Positions 24,180 to 35,667 of a DNA stretch of 39,902 nt are shown piece after piece; the first letter of the stretch is position 1, and each line of letters opens with the position of its first letter. The stretch is from an uncultured Rhodospirillales bacterium. GTDB lineage: Bacteria > Pseudomonadota > Alphaproteobacteria > Azospirillales > Azospirillaceae. A program made the translations under genes and the position numbers. Location of the stretch: assembly GCA_903856295.1 (NCBI GenBank), contig CAIOBP010000103.1, positions 1 through 39,902 of the forward strand, given 5' to 3'. Under the pieces are notes generated by a model. That model worked only from the letters and a program-made list of their open reading frames with translations. It was not told where the DNA came from and made no database searches.

Positions 24180-27100
24180 TCATCGGGGCATGGTATCAGC
24201 CGGGATCGAACTCAGCAGATCGCTCAAGGTGACATCCAAGGCGAGCAGCAAGGTCTGAACCTCGGCCTCTCTCTCCCCTGCGATGGCCGCTTCCAGGGAA
24301 GCGGTGAGCGCAACGACATCCCGGGCGGCGAGGTTGGCGGCGACGCCGCGCAAGGTGTGAACGCGCCGGAGGGCGTCGGCCCGTTTCCCGGCCTCGAGAT
24401 CAGCCAGGATACGCTCGCCGGCATCGCCGAATTGTTCGGCGAGACGGCCGATCAGGACCTCGAACAGCTTGGCGTCACCGTTCAAGCGCCGCGCGGCTTC
24501 CACGCGGTCGATGCCGGGAATCTCCGGGAATCCCTGGTCGTCGGCAGCCCGCGGAACGACGGGCGACGGCGCGGCGGTCGCGCATATCCGCGGCACATGG
24601 GCGACCAACGCGGCGAACACCTCGTCGATTTCGATCGGCTTGGCGAGATGGGCGACCATGCCGGCCTGTCTTGAACGCTCGCGGTCGCCGGCCATGGCGT
24701 TGGCGGTCATCGCGATCACCGGCAACGCGGTCAGCTTCAGCTCCTCACGGATGATCCGGGTGGTTTCGTAGCCATCCATGCCCGGCATCTGCACGTCCAT
24801 CAGCACGGCGTCGAAAGCGGCGCCATCCTCGCGGAGCAAAGCCACCGCCGCCTCGCCGTCTCCGGCGATCTCGACCGCCGCCCCCGCCCGGGTCAGCAGA
24901 CTCTGGGCCACGTCCTGGTTGATCTCGTTATCCTCGACCAGCAACAGACGCATCCCCACCAGACGACCGGCCAGCGGCCGTGGCGGCTGATCGGCGACGC
25001 CGGCCAAGCGGCCAACACCCCGCCGGTCGACACCGAAACGGGCGGTGAAGCGAAACACACTGCCTTGGCCCGGTTCGCTGGCCACCGAGATCGTGCCGCC
25101 CATCAGGGCGACCAGGCGGTTGCTGATCGTCAGCCCCAGACCGGTGCCGCCATAGCGGCGGCTGGTCGAGTTGTCGGCCTGGGAGAACGCCGCGAACAGG
25201 CCGTCCAGCTTCTCCGCCGGGATGCCGATGCCGGTATCCCGGACCGAGAATTCCAGCGTCACCCCGTCCTCGTCCGCCGCCACCGTCCGGATGGACAAGA
25301 CCATGTTGCCCCGCTCGGTGAACTTCACGGCATTGCCCGCGAGGTTCAACAGCACCTGTTGCACGCGCAACTGATCCCCGACCAGCGACGAGGGCACGTC
25401 GGGCGCCACCGAGAACACGGTCTCGATGCCCTTCTCCTGAGCGTTGGTCGAAACCACCGCGGAAACGTTGCGCAGCATCTCCTGGAGTGAGAAGGGAGCG
25501 TGCTCCAGTTCCAGCCGGCCGGCCTCGATCTTGGAGAAGTCGAGAATATCGTTGAGAATGCCGAGCAGAGACTGGGCCGAGCGCCTGACCTTGATCACAT
25601 AGTCCCGTTCGCGATCTTCGAGCGGCGCATCCTCCAGCAGCCGCGACAATCCCATGATGGCATTCATGGGGGTGCGGATTTCATGACTCATATTGGCGAC
25701 GAATTGGCTTTTCGCCCGGCTTGCCGCTTCCGCCCGGTCGCGCGCCACCATCAGCTGTTCGTTGGCGTCCAGCAGCGCCGTCTCGGCCAGCTTGAGATCG
25801 GAGATATCGTCGTGGCTGATGACGACCCGCCCCCGATCGCCCGACAGCGGCGTGACCCGCATCTGGAACCAGCGCTTCTGGTCCGGGGCGTCGCAGGGAT
25901 ATGTCAGGGCAAACTCGCTCCGCCTGCCCGTCATGACCTCTTCGATGCCCTCGGCGGCGGCCAGCGCCTGCGCCCGGTCCTCGCCCTGGGCCGCCCGGCA
26001 CACGCGCAGATAGTTCGTCCCGACACCGGTCCACCCCGGAGCCAAGCCGTTGCTGTGGGCAAAGGTCCGCCACGGGCTGTTTTCCTCGGCGATGGTGCCG
26101 TCGGCGTCGAGAATGGCGATGTGGGACGCCACCGAATCCAGGATGGCACTGACGAAGTCACGGTTGGCCGCCAGACGCCGGCCCTGACTCTCCAGTTCGT
26201 GATGGGCTTCGGCCAGCTTGCGCTCGTCTCTCACCCGCTCCGTGATATCGTGAATGATCGACAGAATTAACGTCCGGCCTTGATAGCGCAGAGGCCCCGC
26301 GTAGTTTTCGATCGCCCGCAGAGAGCCATCGGCAAGACGATGCTCCATCAGGAAGTAGCCACGGTCCTGGGTTCGCGCCTGCTTGATCAAGTCGTCGACC
26401 TCGTCCGGAGGCCGGGTGTTGAGATCGAACACCGCCATCTGACGCAACCTGTCGAGCGGATAGCCGTAGAAGTCCGCCGCCGCCGGGTTGGCATCGACGA
26501 TCCGGCCATCCGATGGATCAACCAACAGCTTGATCGCCGAACCCGACATGAACATCTGCTCGAACAGTTCCTGCTGTTCGCGCAAGACCTGCTCGGCGGC
26601 GCGGTGCTTGGTGGCGTCGCCGAAGATGACCACCGCGCCGGTCACCTTGCCCTCGACCACATGCGGCGCGACGACATACTCGACAGGAAGCTGCGTCCCA
26701 TCGGTGCGAACGAAGAACTCGCCGGACACCCGCCGGACTTCGCCATCGGCCAAGGTCCGCCGGATCGAACACACGCCATCGACGCAGGGGCGCTCATCGG
26801 ACAGCAGATGCCGGAAGGCCTCCTCCACGGTCAGGCCCAGCATGCTGTCCGGAGATGGCCAGCCGAGGAGGGCGGCGGCGGCGCGATTGGCGAAGGTCAG
26901 GCGGGTTTCGCTGTCGACGCCGTAAATCCCTTCGCCGGCGGCTTCGAGAATCTGTTCCAGCCGGGAGGTGGTGGCCTGAAGGGCCGCCGTGCGCTCGGCC
27001 ACCAATCCTTCAAGGCGGTGGCGATGGTCGCCCAATTCGACGGCGACGCTCTCCAAAGCGACCGCGACTTCGACCGCCTCCCTGAAATAGGGCCTGGAAA

Positions 27101-28088
27101 CGGCGACCGGCTTGCAGGTTGCCAGGGCATGGGCCGGCACCGTCAGCGCCCGGACCGAGCGGCTGATCCGCCCCCCCATGATCCACGCGGCGCCGAAGCC
27201 GGTGACCAGCAGGGCGATGACGATCAGGACGGTGAAGGACACCGACTGCAACAACTCGGCGAGGACCGCGCTTTTCGGAATGCCGAGGGCCACCGTCCAC
27301 CCCGTGGTCGCGGATTGGTGGAAGGCGATGATCACCGGGATGTTTTCGAGACTCTTGGTTTCCAGAACACCTTCCGGCACCTCCCGCATCCGCCGGAACA
27401 GTTCGGGTGTCGCCGTCCGGCCGACGAACTGGTCGGGCAAATGCGTCCGGGCGGCGATCACGCCCTTGGCGTCGAAGATCGAAATGATCCGGCCCGGCGG
27501 CAAGCGCTGTTCGGTGAGAATCCGCGCCAACCGCTCGGGCAGAAAGCCGACGCTGAGATCATAGACGACCTTGCCGTCCCGCCACACCGGCACATCGATG
27601 CCGACCAGCGGACGGCGCTGAACACCGCCGATATAAACATCCGAGATGACCGGTTTGCCGGTCTCGAAAACCCGGCGAAGCTGGCCGGGATTGCCGTGGC
27701 GGGGCAGCGGATCGCCGAACGGGCGAATGATGTTGATCAACTGCTGGCCGCTGGCATCGCTCAGCACGAAGGTGAAGCCGGGAAACTCGTCCCGGATCAG
27801 ACTCTTGGCCTGGGCGTGAAAAGCCGCCAGATCGGCCGTCGTGACCTCGTGCGCCGTGATGCTGCGCGACGTGGCCAGGGCGAGAGCGACGTTTTCCCCA
27901 ATGCCCAGGTCGCGGTCCACGGCGGCGACCAGCGCCCGGGTCGTCTGAAGCGCATCCCGCTCAAGCTGGGCGCGCTCCCGTTCATAAAAATGGGAGATCA
28001 GCAGCCCGAGCCCGGCCAGAGACGGCACGATACAGGCCAGGACAACCATTGCGAGCTTGAGGCGAATGGGGGGAAGCCGCTCTCTCAC
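24180..28088 (-). CDS. Hybrid sensor histidine kinase: dCACHE-HAMP-PAS(3)-HisKA-HATPase-REC-Hpt, 1302 aa
   Basis: Inner-membrane hybrid kinase with an extracytoplasmic sensor. A membrane helix at about 10-33 and a second at about 283-305 enclose a double-CACHE-type ligand domain. A HAMP-like region (about 306-365) and PAS domains at about 375-495, 505-618 and 640-767 follow. HisKA has [19 protein letters not shown] (His802); the ATPase domain has [17 protein letters not shown] and [13 protein letters not shown]. The receiver (about 1050-1165) shows [14 protein letters not shown], and the C-terminal Hpt domain shows [13 protein letters not shown] (His1244). The start is GTG 28088 with GGAG 9 bases upstream. 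It is the last gene of its operon, 31 bases after a paralogous kinase with a nearly identical receiver. Confidence 0.92.
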
Positions 28089-28119
28089 TTGGATCGCTCC
28101 ACCAGTGAAACTCCAGATA

Positions 28120-31039
<2,920 letters not shown>

Positions 31040-31047
<8 letters not shown>

Positions 31048-31171
31048 CGTTGCACCGGACCGTTATACACGCACCGCCGATCGGCACGGCCACCAATACC
31101 ACGGCGAACAGAGCCGGCGACACCTCGGGATGGTTGGTTGGCGTCTCCGTTCTTCCGGGACAGCCGCTCAT
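31040..31171 (-). CDS. 43-aa membrane peptide between the REC-Hpt and kinase genes
   Basis: ATG at 31171 follows the REC-Hpt stop by one base and has GGGAGGG just upstream. The reading frame gives MSGCPGRTETPTNHPEVSPA, then a hydrophobic stretch (LFAVVLVAVPIGGACITV) and RCNDA. The TGA overlaps the first codons of the following kinase (ATGCTTGA). A single membrane helix with Cys residues on both sides is predicted. Tight fit between two signalling genes, a good ribosome binding site and the overlap all suggest that it is translated, either as a real peptide or as a coupling ORF for the kinase. No homologue is known to me. Confidence 0.6.
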
Positions 31172-31172
31172 G

Positions 31173-32387
31173 TCATCCCTCCCGGCCTCCTCCGGACTCA
31201 AGATATTCGGACACTTCGGCCAGGATGAGCCTCAACAGGCGCCCGACCTCCTGGCTCAGCCGCTCGGCCCGTGCGCCATCATTCCGGCGGGCGGCGATCT
31301 GCAGCGCCCCGGCGATCGCGGACAGGGTGTTCGCGCCAAGATTGGCGGTCACCCCCTGAAGGGTGTGAGCAATCCGAACCACGTCTGCGAGGTCCTCGGC
31401 CTTCAGGGCGGTATCGAGCGCCCGGTCGGTGGCGGCGAAGTCGCGGGCGAAGTCGGTCAGAACCTCCCGGAGCAGGGCGTCGTCCCCGGAAGCCCGTTTG
31501 AGGGCCTGATCAAGATCGAACTCCCGCCGAACAGCGGAGACCGGCGCAACCGGCGGTACCGGAGCGCCCCGGCCGCACGCGGCGATCGCCGTCAGCAGCT
31601 GTTCGATGTCCAGCGGTTTGGGGATGTGATCGTTCATGCCCGCCGCGAGAGCGCGCTCGCGGTCGGCCGGCAGACTGCCGGCGGTCATGGCGATCACCGG
31701 CAGGCCCGACAGCTCCGGCCGGCCCCGGATCGCCGCGGTGGCCTCGTAGCCGTCCATGCCCGGCATCTGGATATCCATCAGCACGACAGCGAAACGGGCC
31801 GGCGTGGCCGACAACGTGTCCAGCGCCTCCTGCCCGTCGAACGCCACCTCGACCGTCGCCCCGGCGGACTCCAGCATCCGCTGGGCGACCGCCTGATTGA
31901 TCTCGTTGTCCTCGACCAGCAGCAGGGTCAGACCGGCCAGCGGAGCGGCCGTCACCGGAGCCGGGACGAACGGGCAGCGCTCGCCCCCTTCCCTGATCAC
32001 CGCACAGGCCGTCACCTCCGCGTCGGGCGGTCCCGGGGACACCACGGATTCGCCGGCCGGCCAAGCCCCTCCCCCCAGACGCCAGTCGGCGACCAGTCGG
32101 GCCAAGGCGTGACGGGTTTCGTCGCTGCCGCCGGCCGGCGGCCGCCCGGTGGCCGGTGGCGCCGCTTCGGACAACCGGGTGCGTTCGAGAGCGGCGCACC
32201 CGAGCATCACGACATGCGAGCAATCATTCCCGACGAGCAAGCGCAACTCGTCCCAGGCCATCGGCGAACGGCGGCAACCCGCCGGATAGACAGCGACACC
32301 GACATCGCTCCAGCCTTCGGCGGCCACCACCGCCCGGACCTCCGGTTCGAAATCCCGGCAACAGAGAATGCGCAATTTTCCGGTCAT
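31173..32387 (-). CDS. REC-Hpt phosphorelay protein with Cys-containing N-terminal domain, 404 aa
   Basis: A cytosolic phosphorelay protein. Residues 1-75 form a small alpha/beta domain with ILCCRDFEPEVRAVV, YPAGCRRSP and CSHVVMLGC, that is, five cysteines in conserved-looking positions; it faintly resembles DUF1638-type proteins, a weak call. After a Pro/Gly-rich linker, a receiver spans about 152-270 ([11 protein letters not shown], Asp205 in [25 protein letters not shown]). An Hpt domain closes the protein (about 290-395, AHTLQGVTANLGA with His341). It is the first gene of the operon with the two hybrid kinases, so it may collect phosphate from them and others. ATG 32387 has only a weak ribosome binding site. 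Confidence 0.9.
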   Translation of the reverse strand: MTGKLRILCCRDFEPEVRAVVAAEGWSDVGVAVYPAGCRRSPMAWDELRLLVGNDCSHVVMLGCAALERTRLSEAAPPATGRPPAGGSDETRHALARLVADWRLGGGAWPAGESVVSPGPPDAEVTACAVIREGGERCPFVPAPVTAAPLAGLTLLLVEDNEINQAVAQRMLESAGATVEVAFDGQEALDTLSATPARFAVVLMDIQMPGMDGYEATAAIRGRPELSGLPVIAMTAGSLPADRERALAAGMNDHIPKPLDIEQLLTAIAACGRGAPVPPVAPVSAVRREFDLDQALKRASGDDALLREVLTDFARDFAATDRALDTALKAEDLADVVRIAHTLQGVTANLGANTLSAIAGALQIAARRNDGARAERLSQEVGRLLRLILAEVSEYLESGGGREG

Positions 32388-33407: not shown

Positions 33408-35066
33408 ATGAAAATCTGCGTTCTGTATTCAGCTTACGACCATTCCGACTCACCCTTGAAAGACTGTGACTCGCCTCTGGATATTCTGCCCCATCTCTCC
33501 GGTCATGAGGTCGAAGTTGCCGGGATTCACAAGGCGACCGCGGTCCGGCAAGTCCGAAAACTGGCGGACTCCGGCTTCGATGTCTTCATCAATCTCTGCG
33601 ACGGCGCCTGGGATGAAGATCGCGCCGGCATCGAGGTCGTCGATGCCCTGGAACGCTTGCGCCTGCCCTTCACCGGCGCGGCCTCGGAATTTTACGAGCC
33701 GAGCCGGGAGGCGATGAAACGGGTCTGTCATTTTCATGGACTGGCCACCCCGGCCTATCGCTTCGCCAGGGATGCCGGCGGCATTGCCGAGGCGGCGGCA
33801 AACCTGCGCTTCCCTTTGATCGTCAAGCATCCCTCCAGCTATTCCAGCATCGGCATGACCAAAGCCTCCCGCGTCACGACGGGGGAAGACCTGCATCGCG
33901 AAGCCGCCCGATTCATCGGGCAGTTTGGCGAAGTCTTGATCGAAGAGTTCATCGAAGGCCGTGAATACACGGTTCTGGTCGTGGAAAATGCCGACGATCC
34001 CCTCAACCCGGTGGTTTTCGATGCGCTCGCGTACCAGTTTCCTCCCGGAGAGACATTCAAACACTATGACCTGAAATGGATTGATTACAACGACGTCAGC
34101 GCCGGTCGCTGTGATGATGACGACCTGAACGACCGGTTGCAGGCCATCTCATCGAAGTTTTTCCTGGGCTTGAACGGCTCCGGATATGGCCGCTGCGACA
34201 TACGGGTCGACGCCCGGGGCGTGCCATATCTGCTTGAGATCAATCCGAATTGCGGTATTTTTTACGCGCAGGACAACGCCGGCAGCGCCGACCTTATTTT
34301 GCTCAACCATCCCCAGGGTTACCAGAAATTCCTCTCACTGATTCTGAAGGCCGCGCAACGGCGGGTCCGGCAGCGCACTTGGGAGGTCAAGTTCGGTGAA
34401 AAAAGCCGATATGGTCTCCACGCCATCCGCGACATTGCACCCGGAGACCTGATCGAGGCCTTCGAAGAGCAGCCGCATGTTCTGGTGAGCCGCTCCCATG
34501 TCGAAAAGACTTGGGGTGCTTTCGAGAAAGACTGGTTCAGCCGCCACGCTTATCCTTTGACCGAAGATGTCTGGGTCATTTTGAGCAAGCGCCCGGAGGA
34601 CTGGAAGCCGATCAATCACGCCGGCGATCCGACCGCCCGGCTCGATGGATTGAATGTCGTCGCCCGTCGGCACATCGCGCGGGGCGAGGAGATCACTCTG
34701 GCCTTCCCGCCAACACCACTTGCCTGCGAAAAAGCCGCGTTCTATACCCCACGCGCACATCACGCGAACGAGGCGGACATGGAAGCCCACGGACAAACCA
34801 CAGACAAACTCAAATCCTATGTCGAGCGGCTGGAAAGACTCCAGGACGAGGTCGACGCCCTGAAGGACAGTATCAAGGACCTGCGGACTGAAATCAAAAA
34901 TGACGGCTTCAATGTCAAGGCCGTGGAGCGGATCGTCGCCTTTCGCCGCAAGGATGGCACCGCGGACAAGGAAGCGGAATTCATCAACGATGTCATCCTT
35001 TATGCCAGCGTGACCGGCACTCCGCTCGATATCGCCGCGCCAGACGAGGGCGCCGCGTCCTCCTGA
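33408..35066 (+). CDS. Three-domain protein: ATP-grasp ligase, SET domain, GapR/DUF2312-like domain, 552 aa
   Basis: Residues 1-315 are a D-Ala-D-Ala-ligase-like ATP-grasp enzyme: FINLCDGAWDEDRAGIEVVDALE and LPFTGA at the front, the nucleotide lysine in FPLIVKHPSSYSSIGM (Lys140), IEEFIEGREYTVLV, and metal ligands in YLLEINPNCGIF (Glu277, Asn279). Such enzymes join a carboxylate to an amine using ATP. Residues 323-435 match a SET methyltransferase fold: SRYGLHAIRDIAPGDLIEAF, INHAGDPTA in place of NHSCxPN, and VVARRHIARGEEITLAF, where Phe433 replaces the usual catalytic Tyr. Residues 463-540 match the DNA-binding protein GapR (DUF2312): DKLKSYVERLERLQDEVDAL, IKDLRTEIKNDGFNVKAVER, IVAFRRKDG. No ribosome binding site stands out at ATG 33408. 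Met458 (34779) could start a separate GapR-like protein. The terminator is at 35105. Confidence 0.85.
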   Translation: MKICVLYSAYDHSDSPLKDCDSPLDILPHLSGHEVEVAGIHKATAVRQVRKLADSGFDVFINLCDGAWDEDRAGIEVVDALERLRLPFTGAASEFYEPSREAMKRVCHFHGLATPAYRFARDAGGIAEAAANLRFPLIVKHPSSYSSIGMTKASRVTTGEDLHREAARFIGQFGEVLIEEFIEGREYTVLVVENADDPLNPVVFDALAYQFPPGETFKHYDLKWIDYNDVSAGRCDDDDLNDRLQAISSKFFLGLNGSGYGRCDIRVDARGVPYLLEINPNCGIFYAQDNAGSADLILLNHPQGYQKFLSLILKAAQRRVRQRTWEVKFGEKSRYGLHAIRDIAPGDLIEAFEEQPHVLVSRSHVEKTWGAFEKDWFSRHAYPLTEDVWVILSKRPEDWKPINHAGDPTARLDGLNVVARRHIARGEEITLAFPPTPLACEKAAFYTPRAHHANEADMEAHGQTTDKLKSYVERLERLQDEVDALKDSIKDLRTEIKNDGFNVKAVERIVAFRRKDGTADKEAEFINDVILYASVTGTPLDIAAPDEGAASS

Positions 35067-35104
35067 CGGGAAAAGCCCCCTTCACCTTCCCGACAAGACC
35101 ATCT

Positions 35105-35139
35105 CCCGCTGATGAAACCTCGTCAGCGGGCTTTTCTTT
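35105..35139 (+). terminator. Rho-independent terminator after the ATP-grasp/SET/GapR-like gene
   Basis: CCCGCTGA (35105-35112) pairs with TCAGCGGG (35123-35130) as a perfect 8-bp stem, followed by CTTTTCTTT. Stem and loop are almost the same sequence as the hairpin after groEL. Confidence 0.85.
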
Positions 35140-35175
35140 GCCGGCGCCGCACGAACAACCCTTCCAATCATCCCC

Positions 35176-35310
35176 AGTCCACACAAATACAATAAATTAA
35201 CCATCACAGTAATAATTATAGTTAATTACCATTATGAATATAACTCCCTTAAGATATCCTGGACAAACAGGCGTTCATTAATTTTTTCATTGACACTCGA
35301 CTGAATGCAT
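35176..35310. other. AT-rich spacer
   Basis: Within the 320-base gap 35067-35386, this stretch is strikingly AT-rich for the window, with repeated AATTA-type motifs (ATAAATTAACC, TAGTTAATTACC, CATTAATTTTTT). Two TTGACA hexamers follow at 35290-35295 and 35334-35339, but neither has a convincing -10 sequence at 16-18 bases. It is probably the regulatory region of the next gene or a site for nucleoid proteins; no gene is seen. Confidence 0.5.
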
Positions 35311-35386
35311 ATCAAAAATGTTCCGCGCCGTGCTTGACATCACGAGAGATTGACGGACACAGCCTCATCTTCCTTTAGCTTCAACA

Positions 35387-35614
35387 GTGTTATCGGATCG
35401 GCCTGTGGACGCTACAACCAGATGCATGATCGAAGACGCCTATCACGAGGCGTTCGCCGAGGCGGTTTCGCGGGGAGGCAGCCTGCTCACCGCTCATAAA
35501 GAAGCCATCATCGCCGCCGGCATGCTGCTCTCGGCCCTCATCGGCCTTGAGGACGAGGAGGCGAAGACTTCGGTGATCGCCCTCAATCTGCGCCCGCTCA
35601 CCGGCCGGGAGTGA
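35387..35614 (+). CDS. Small hypothetical protein, 75 aa
   Basis: The family is not recognised. The protein is largely helical: MIEDAYHEAFAEAVSRGGS, then LLTAHKEAIIAAGMLLSALI, then an acidic turn (GLEDEEA) and a final strand-like part (KTSVIALNLRP). The middle helix is amphipathic rather than clearly membrane-spanning. GTG at 35387 is the earliest start; GTG 35405 and ATG 35426 are alternatives, and none has a good ribosome binding site, so the N-terminus is uncertain. It is preceded by the AT-rich spacer and followed by the NDUFAF5-like methyltransferase gene on the same strand after about 50 bases. Confidence 0.55.
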   Translation: MLSDRPVDATTRCMIEDAYHEAFAEAVSRGGSLLTAHKEAIIAAGMLLSALIGLEDEEAKTSVIALNLRPLTGRE

Positions 35615-35667
35615 CGACCGGTGCCTGAACGCTTGCCGGCCGGCGCTTCCGGATTCTACAGTCGGCC

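Follow-up and report, generated by a model that had tools for sequence, protein, structure and literature searches.

A single open frame with ATP-grasp, SET-remnant and GapR regions in an uncultured Rhodospirillales bacterium: a probable recent join by chance

In one contig of an uncultured Rhodospirillales bacterium (GCA_903856295.1, contig CAIOBP010000103.1; the whole 39,902-nucleotide stretch analysed is called the window), positions 33408-35066 of the plus strand form a single frame of 552 codons, open from ATG to TGA without interruption. The initial annotation had read this frame as one protein that combines an ATP-grasp ligase, a SET-type methyltransferase fold and a GapR-like domain. 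The continuous frame is there as annotated, and three sequence regions do lie in it, but comparison does not support the view that all three are working domains of one protein. The locus seems to have been joined by accident, recently and in this one genome. It is probably a lineage-specific composite, in which a laterally acquired, truncated ATP-grasp-SET gene reads by chance into gapR2, a gene for a GapR paralogue that would be expressed largely from its own start (Table 1).

Table 1. Features in and around the 552-codon frame (positions in the window)
Feature	Position	Strand	Evidence or remark
Class I SAM methyltransferase gene, 235 aa	32661..33368	+	Pfam Methyltransf_25/11; 39 bp upstream of the frame
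Ddl-like ATP-grasp ligase, aa 1-320	33408..34367	+	Pfam; catalytic residues intact; nearest solved structures are D-Ala-D-Ala ligases
Truncated, decayed SET domain, aa 330-432	34395..34703	+	Pfam SET 21.9 bits; lost residues
Junction zone, aa 433-457: end of SET remnant and apparent gapR2 5′ leader, in frame	34704..34778	+	codon GC, pLDDT, loss of homology
Promoter-like TTGCCT-N16-CTATAC	34720..34747	+	begins 59 bp before the gapR2 ATG; shared leader motif
GAGG, ribosome-binding-site-like	34770..34773	+	5 bp before the internal ATG; stand-alone gapR2 leaders have similar GAGG/GAGAGG
gapR2, complete GapR/DUF2312 paralogue gene, 95 aa from internal Met458	34779..35066	+	start of blastn homology; aa identity
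Terminator-like hairpin with T-rich tail, after gapR2	35105..35130	+	weak

The first part of the frame is related to D-alanine-D-alanine ligases (Ddl), as had been proposed. Residues 126-284 match the Pfam profile Dala_Dala_lig_C with 64.4 bits (E 1.4e-17; cut-off 24 bits), and in comparison with relatives Lys140, Glu277 and Asn279, the residues named in the initial annotation, are kept together with the surrounding conserved ATP/Mg-binding columns. Two of ~80 conserved columns are altered, at 206 and 287, and the change at 206 is common to a second ATP-grasp copy of this genome, which lies on contig C52 and has no SET domain at all. The solved sequence relatives of the 552-residue protein are Ddl ligases and GapR proteins, and the best 50 Foldseek matches listed are exclusively Ddl-type structures, a list uninformative for the SET and GapR parts. 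The protein thus shares its fold and ATP-binding residues with Ddl, but it falls far below the NCBIfam cut-offs for true Ddl (86.1 versus 243 and 72.6 versus 245.65 bits) and its relatives bear a C-terminal SET domain. The ligase part has been under past constraint, since its dN to the C52 copy is ~0.18 against a dS of 0.61-0.73, although dS is saturated for most pairs, so that a branch-wise test of selection is not clean. An ATP-dependent carboxylate-amine ligase activity is plausible for this part.

The SET profile matches residues 335-431 with 21.9 bits (E 2.4e-4), just below the cut-off of 22.4 bits. The homology is nevertheless secure, because a full-length relative (L067), 61-67% identical to the window protein, scores 38.8 bits. 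Where the relatives read INHSCDPNA...GEEITxDYATFC, the window protein has INHAGDPTA...GEEITLAF; the changes from the full-length relatives are W392L, C406G (the cysteine of NHxC), W411R and DY to AF at 432-433, the last of which removes the catalytic tyrosine (Y433F). The post-SET CxC...C cluster, with the whole C-terminal region after 432-433, is absent here and kept by full-length relatives, whose C-terminus reads DYATFC...FxCxCG...CRG...YGxHVSDYVR. In SET chemistry the tyrosine and the post-SET zinc site are required for catalysis and for binding of substrate and SAM. With the catalytic tyrosine, the NHxC cysteine and the zinc cluster all missing, the domain should therefore not methylate, and we infer that it is catalytically dead. 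Of the proposed SET-type fold, the homology to SET lysine methyltransferases (PF00856) stands; the motif is abnormal, and the catalytic residues and cysteines, which the relatives have as NHSCxPN, DY and CxC...C, are gone. The protein- or peptide-modifying function that had been suggested for a ligase plus a SET domain is accordingly not borne out. Compared with L067, the remnant (67% amino acid identity) has diverged no further than the ATP-grasp part (61%), which argues that the break is probably recent; either it is recent, or the remnant would still be constrained. A displaced 3′ end of the gene was not found downstream within the window, and in the rest of the genome solely a separate paralogue on contig C254 and its small SET neighbour were matched.

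The third part is a GapR/DUF2312-like region, again as annotated. GapR_DNA-bd (PF10073) matches residues 465-529 with 54.9 bits (E 6.6e-15; cut-off 22.6 bits), so that both the ATP-grasp and the GapR parts of the 552-residue sequence pass their Pfam cut-offs; residues 465-533 also match solved GapR-family chains (E 9e-11). Structure prediction returned helices at 465-499, 503-514 and 520-536, in the order of solved GapR, with a pLDDT of ~50-63 over the block: the helix order is GapR-like, and the confidence of linker and GapR part is low. In sequence match and predicted order of three helices the tail resembles the nucleoid-associated GapR of Caulobacter (UPF0335/DUF2312), from which it differs as a divergent paralogue placed in frame behind another gene. 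Members of this family are expected to bind overtwisted AT-rich DNA as oligomers. Three matches in this genome exceed the cut-off, namely the ordinary GapR on contig C208 (116.6 bits, versus 59.3 for the gapR2 of the window), the window itself and a stand-alone paralogue on contig C195.

gapR2 is normally a separate gene, standing alone in the genus, in the family and on C195 of this genome; the stand-alone copies of all four genus relatives are 79-85% identical in amino acids to that of the window. In blastn comparisons with the seven gapR2 copies of the genus and this genome, DNA homology starts at the internal ATG (34778/34779) for six and at 34770 for the seventh. Contigs C104 and C105 end in further gapR2 starts, and the multiple copies in this genome have UmuC-like, recombinase and LexA-like genes nearby. 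C105 and C104 are similar contigs (loci L084 and L085; their UmuC-like polymerase genes share 94% identity over 440 aa) that both break off within a gapR2 copy, and they may represent a repeated or mobile element.

Between the two genes, the coding pattern of GC by codon position is lost over residues 434-457 (24 codons only), the structure model has pLDDT below 50 for residues 434-469, and homology to the ATP-grasp/SET relatives fades by ~34728. The junction can be placed only within ~34704-34730, because TPLAC (residues 436-440) may be the last trace of the TPFDC of the relatives. A leader motif, TTGCC-N15-18-CTAT, stands at -59 in the window. The stand-alone gapR2 genes of C195, of C105 and of three genus relatives have it at -57 to -59, and the leader of the fourth relative (G003) matches it incompletely. 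The motif, which was defined post hoc, after looking at these leaders, occurs once in 249,116 background positions, giving ~3e-5 occurrences expected by chance in the stretch concerned. An nhmmer profile of the whole stand-alone leader leaves the window leader undetected, and the global alignment score of the latter is in the top 2-4% of ATG leaders, so that whole-leader similarity is not significant and the leader argument rests on the post hoc motif. The hairpin behind gapR2 is weak evidence, because shuffled sequences give a mean of 1.3 such sites. A join free of stops in this frame is not improbable, since open leaders are common: three of the six stand-alone leaders are open in the gapR2 frame, for 73, 82 and at least 114 codons.

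At the thresholds used, the ATP-grasp-SET gene occurs in one of 82 genomes of the family and one of 385 genomes of the class, in each case this genome, which argues that it was probably acquired laterally. No second GapR fusion was found in the 82 family or 385 class genomes, and none in phages and plasmids, where GapR-like or Ddl-like pieces were all that was detected (plasmids were searched with the GapR part). The methyltransferase gene does lie 39 bases upstream, as annotated. It is absent, however, from the loci of all 44 relatives of the ATP-grasp/SET part and from the other four genus genomes, and was rejected as a conserved partner; as far as could be seen, it is probably an accidental neighbour, and the idea of a chromosome-linked system that includes it is not supported. 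Positions 35067-35656, ~590 bp between gapR2 and a conserved methyltransferase/PBP1A block, contain no evident gene and are partly AT-rich (35190-35320). Elsewhere in the window, at 24180-32387 on the minus strand, a receiver protein and two large hybrid histidine kinases are encoded in tandem; their receiver regions closely resemble one another.

In the composite locus that we propose, a laterally acquired ATP-grasp-SET gene would have lost its 3′ end, with the catalytic tyrosine and post-SET region, and a paralogous gapR2 would have come to sit directly behind the break. The break being in frame by chance, and the gapR2 leader stop-free in that frame, one long frame would have resulted. The promoter-like site, the GAGG and the ATG at 34779 would be the main source of GapR2, as a small nucleoid protein in free form. 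Translation from 33408 could yield some long protein, in which a working Ddl-type ATP-grasp part would be followed by the dead SET remnant, then by a disordered stretch and the GapR tail. The domain content, the lost SET residues, the onset of homology at the internal ATG, the separate gapR2 genes elsewhere and the rarity of the fusion are direct observations; use of the internal start and the chance origin of the join, like the inactivity of SET, are inferred.

The long frame could instead be a selected three-part protein: a ligase for peptide or protein substrates, with the SET remnant as its scaffold, that would be held on DNA or on GapR tetramers by the GapR tail. The frame is open and undecayed over its 552 codons, the ligase has been under constraint and has its catalytic residues intact, and GapR-like helices are predicted; but the arrangement is known from one genome only, the SET domain was destroyed at the join, linker and GapR part are modelled with low confidence, and the start signals of gapR2 are apparently retained. 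We consider this explanation unlikely, and the role of the tail as a targeting part of one protein is unsupported, GapR being separate elsewhere. It is likewise unlikely that the fusion is made and useful as a DNA-tethered ATP-grasp ligase with an inactive SET scaffold, alongside free GapR2 from the internal start; if true, a nucleoid protein and a ligase bound to the nucleoid would come from one gene.

A misjoining of two DNA pieces near 34704-34778 during assembly would fit a genome in 255 contigs whose other gapR2 copies lie, as repeats do, at contig ends (C104 and C105). Yet from 35657 onwards the window is again syntenic with the closest genus relative, and its gapR2, with only ~76% DNA identity to the other copies, lacks a long exact overlap at which pieces could be wrongly joined. 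We regard a chimera as unlikely too. Of the refutation set out with the initial annotation, a third part that is always separate elsewhere together with a frameshift or assembly error here, one half holds: the third part is indeed a separate gene everywhere else, but the window has neither a frameshift nor a positive sign of misassembly.

Beyond this genome, relatives of residues 1-433, or of part of them, turned up at 44 loci (L034-L077) when each species was represented by one genome. Their best segments are 42-62% identical, and their record names include Chloroflexi, Gemmatimonadota, Acidobacteria, Planctomycetota, Myxococcales, Rhodothermales, Actinomycetota, Methylococcales, one Beijerinckiaceae and others. 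None of the 44 loci has a GapR tail. Five members are ATP-grasp only (L071, L072, L074-L076), and eight are longer, ~640-660 aa (639-658; L051, L054, L056, L059, L060, L063, L068 and L077). These long relatives appear to carry a second SET domain, the small SET gene fused at the C-terminus; Pfam confirms the two SET stretches for L051. The small SET gene lies immediately upstream of the ATP-grasp-SET gene in L034, L036, L038 and L067, and a related ABC exporter adjoins ATP-grasp(-SET) genes in three genomes (L034:7399-9147, L067:3681-5474 and, at the C52 copy of this genome, L081:5894-7642). The third paralogue of this genome (L082; G000:C254:62594-63853, minus strand) has intact SET motifs (NHSCAPN, LDY, CxC...C), altered ATP-grasp residues (K140 to T, E277 to G, N279 to D) and a small SET gene just upstream (64039-64314). 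Ligase and SET activities look divided among the paralogues, because L082 keeps SET, and the copies in the window and on C52 have retained the ligase but no working SET. In a full-text literature search that covered few subscription journals, eukaryotic TTLL12 alone was relevant to the combination. This protein, reported to be inactive in vitro, likewise combines a SET-like domain with an ATP-grasp-type (TTL) ligase, but it is eukaryotic, has SET N-terminal and the ligase C-terminal, and lacks GapR (PMC3520985). The bacterial family seems little described, though descriptions elsewhere are possible.

An open frame with good profile matches can thus suggest a new architecture where comparison shows a probable read-through join. 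A better lead than the fusion is the ATP-grasp plus SET family itself, which is spread over many phyla and at some loci has a small SET gene and an exporter as neighbours. Ligase and SET protein(s) occur together at a few loci, in some cases with an exporter as well, which hints that the parent family might synthesize and N-methylate a small peptide-like product, perhaps a peptide or an amide.
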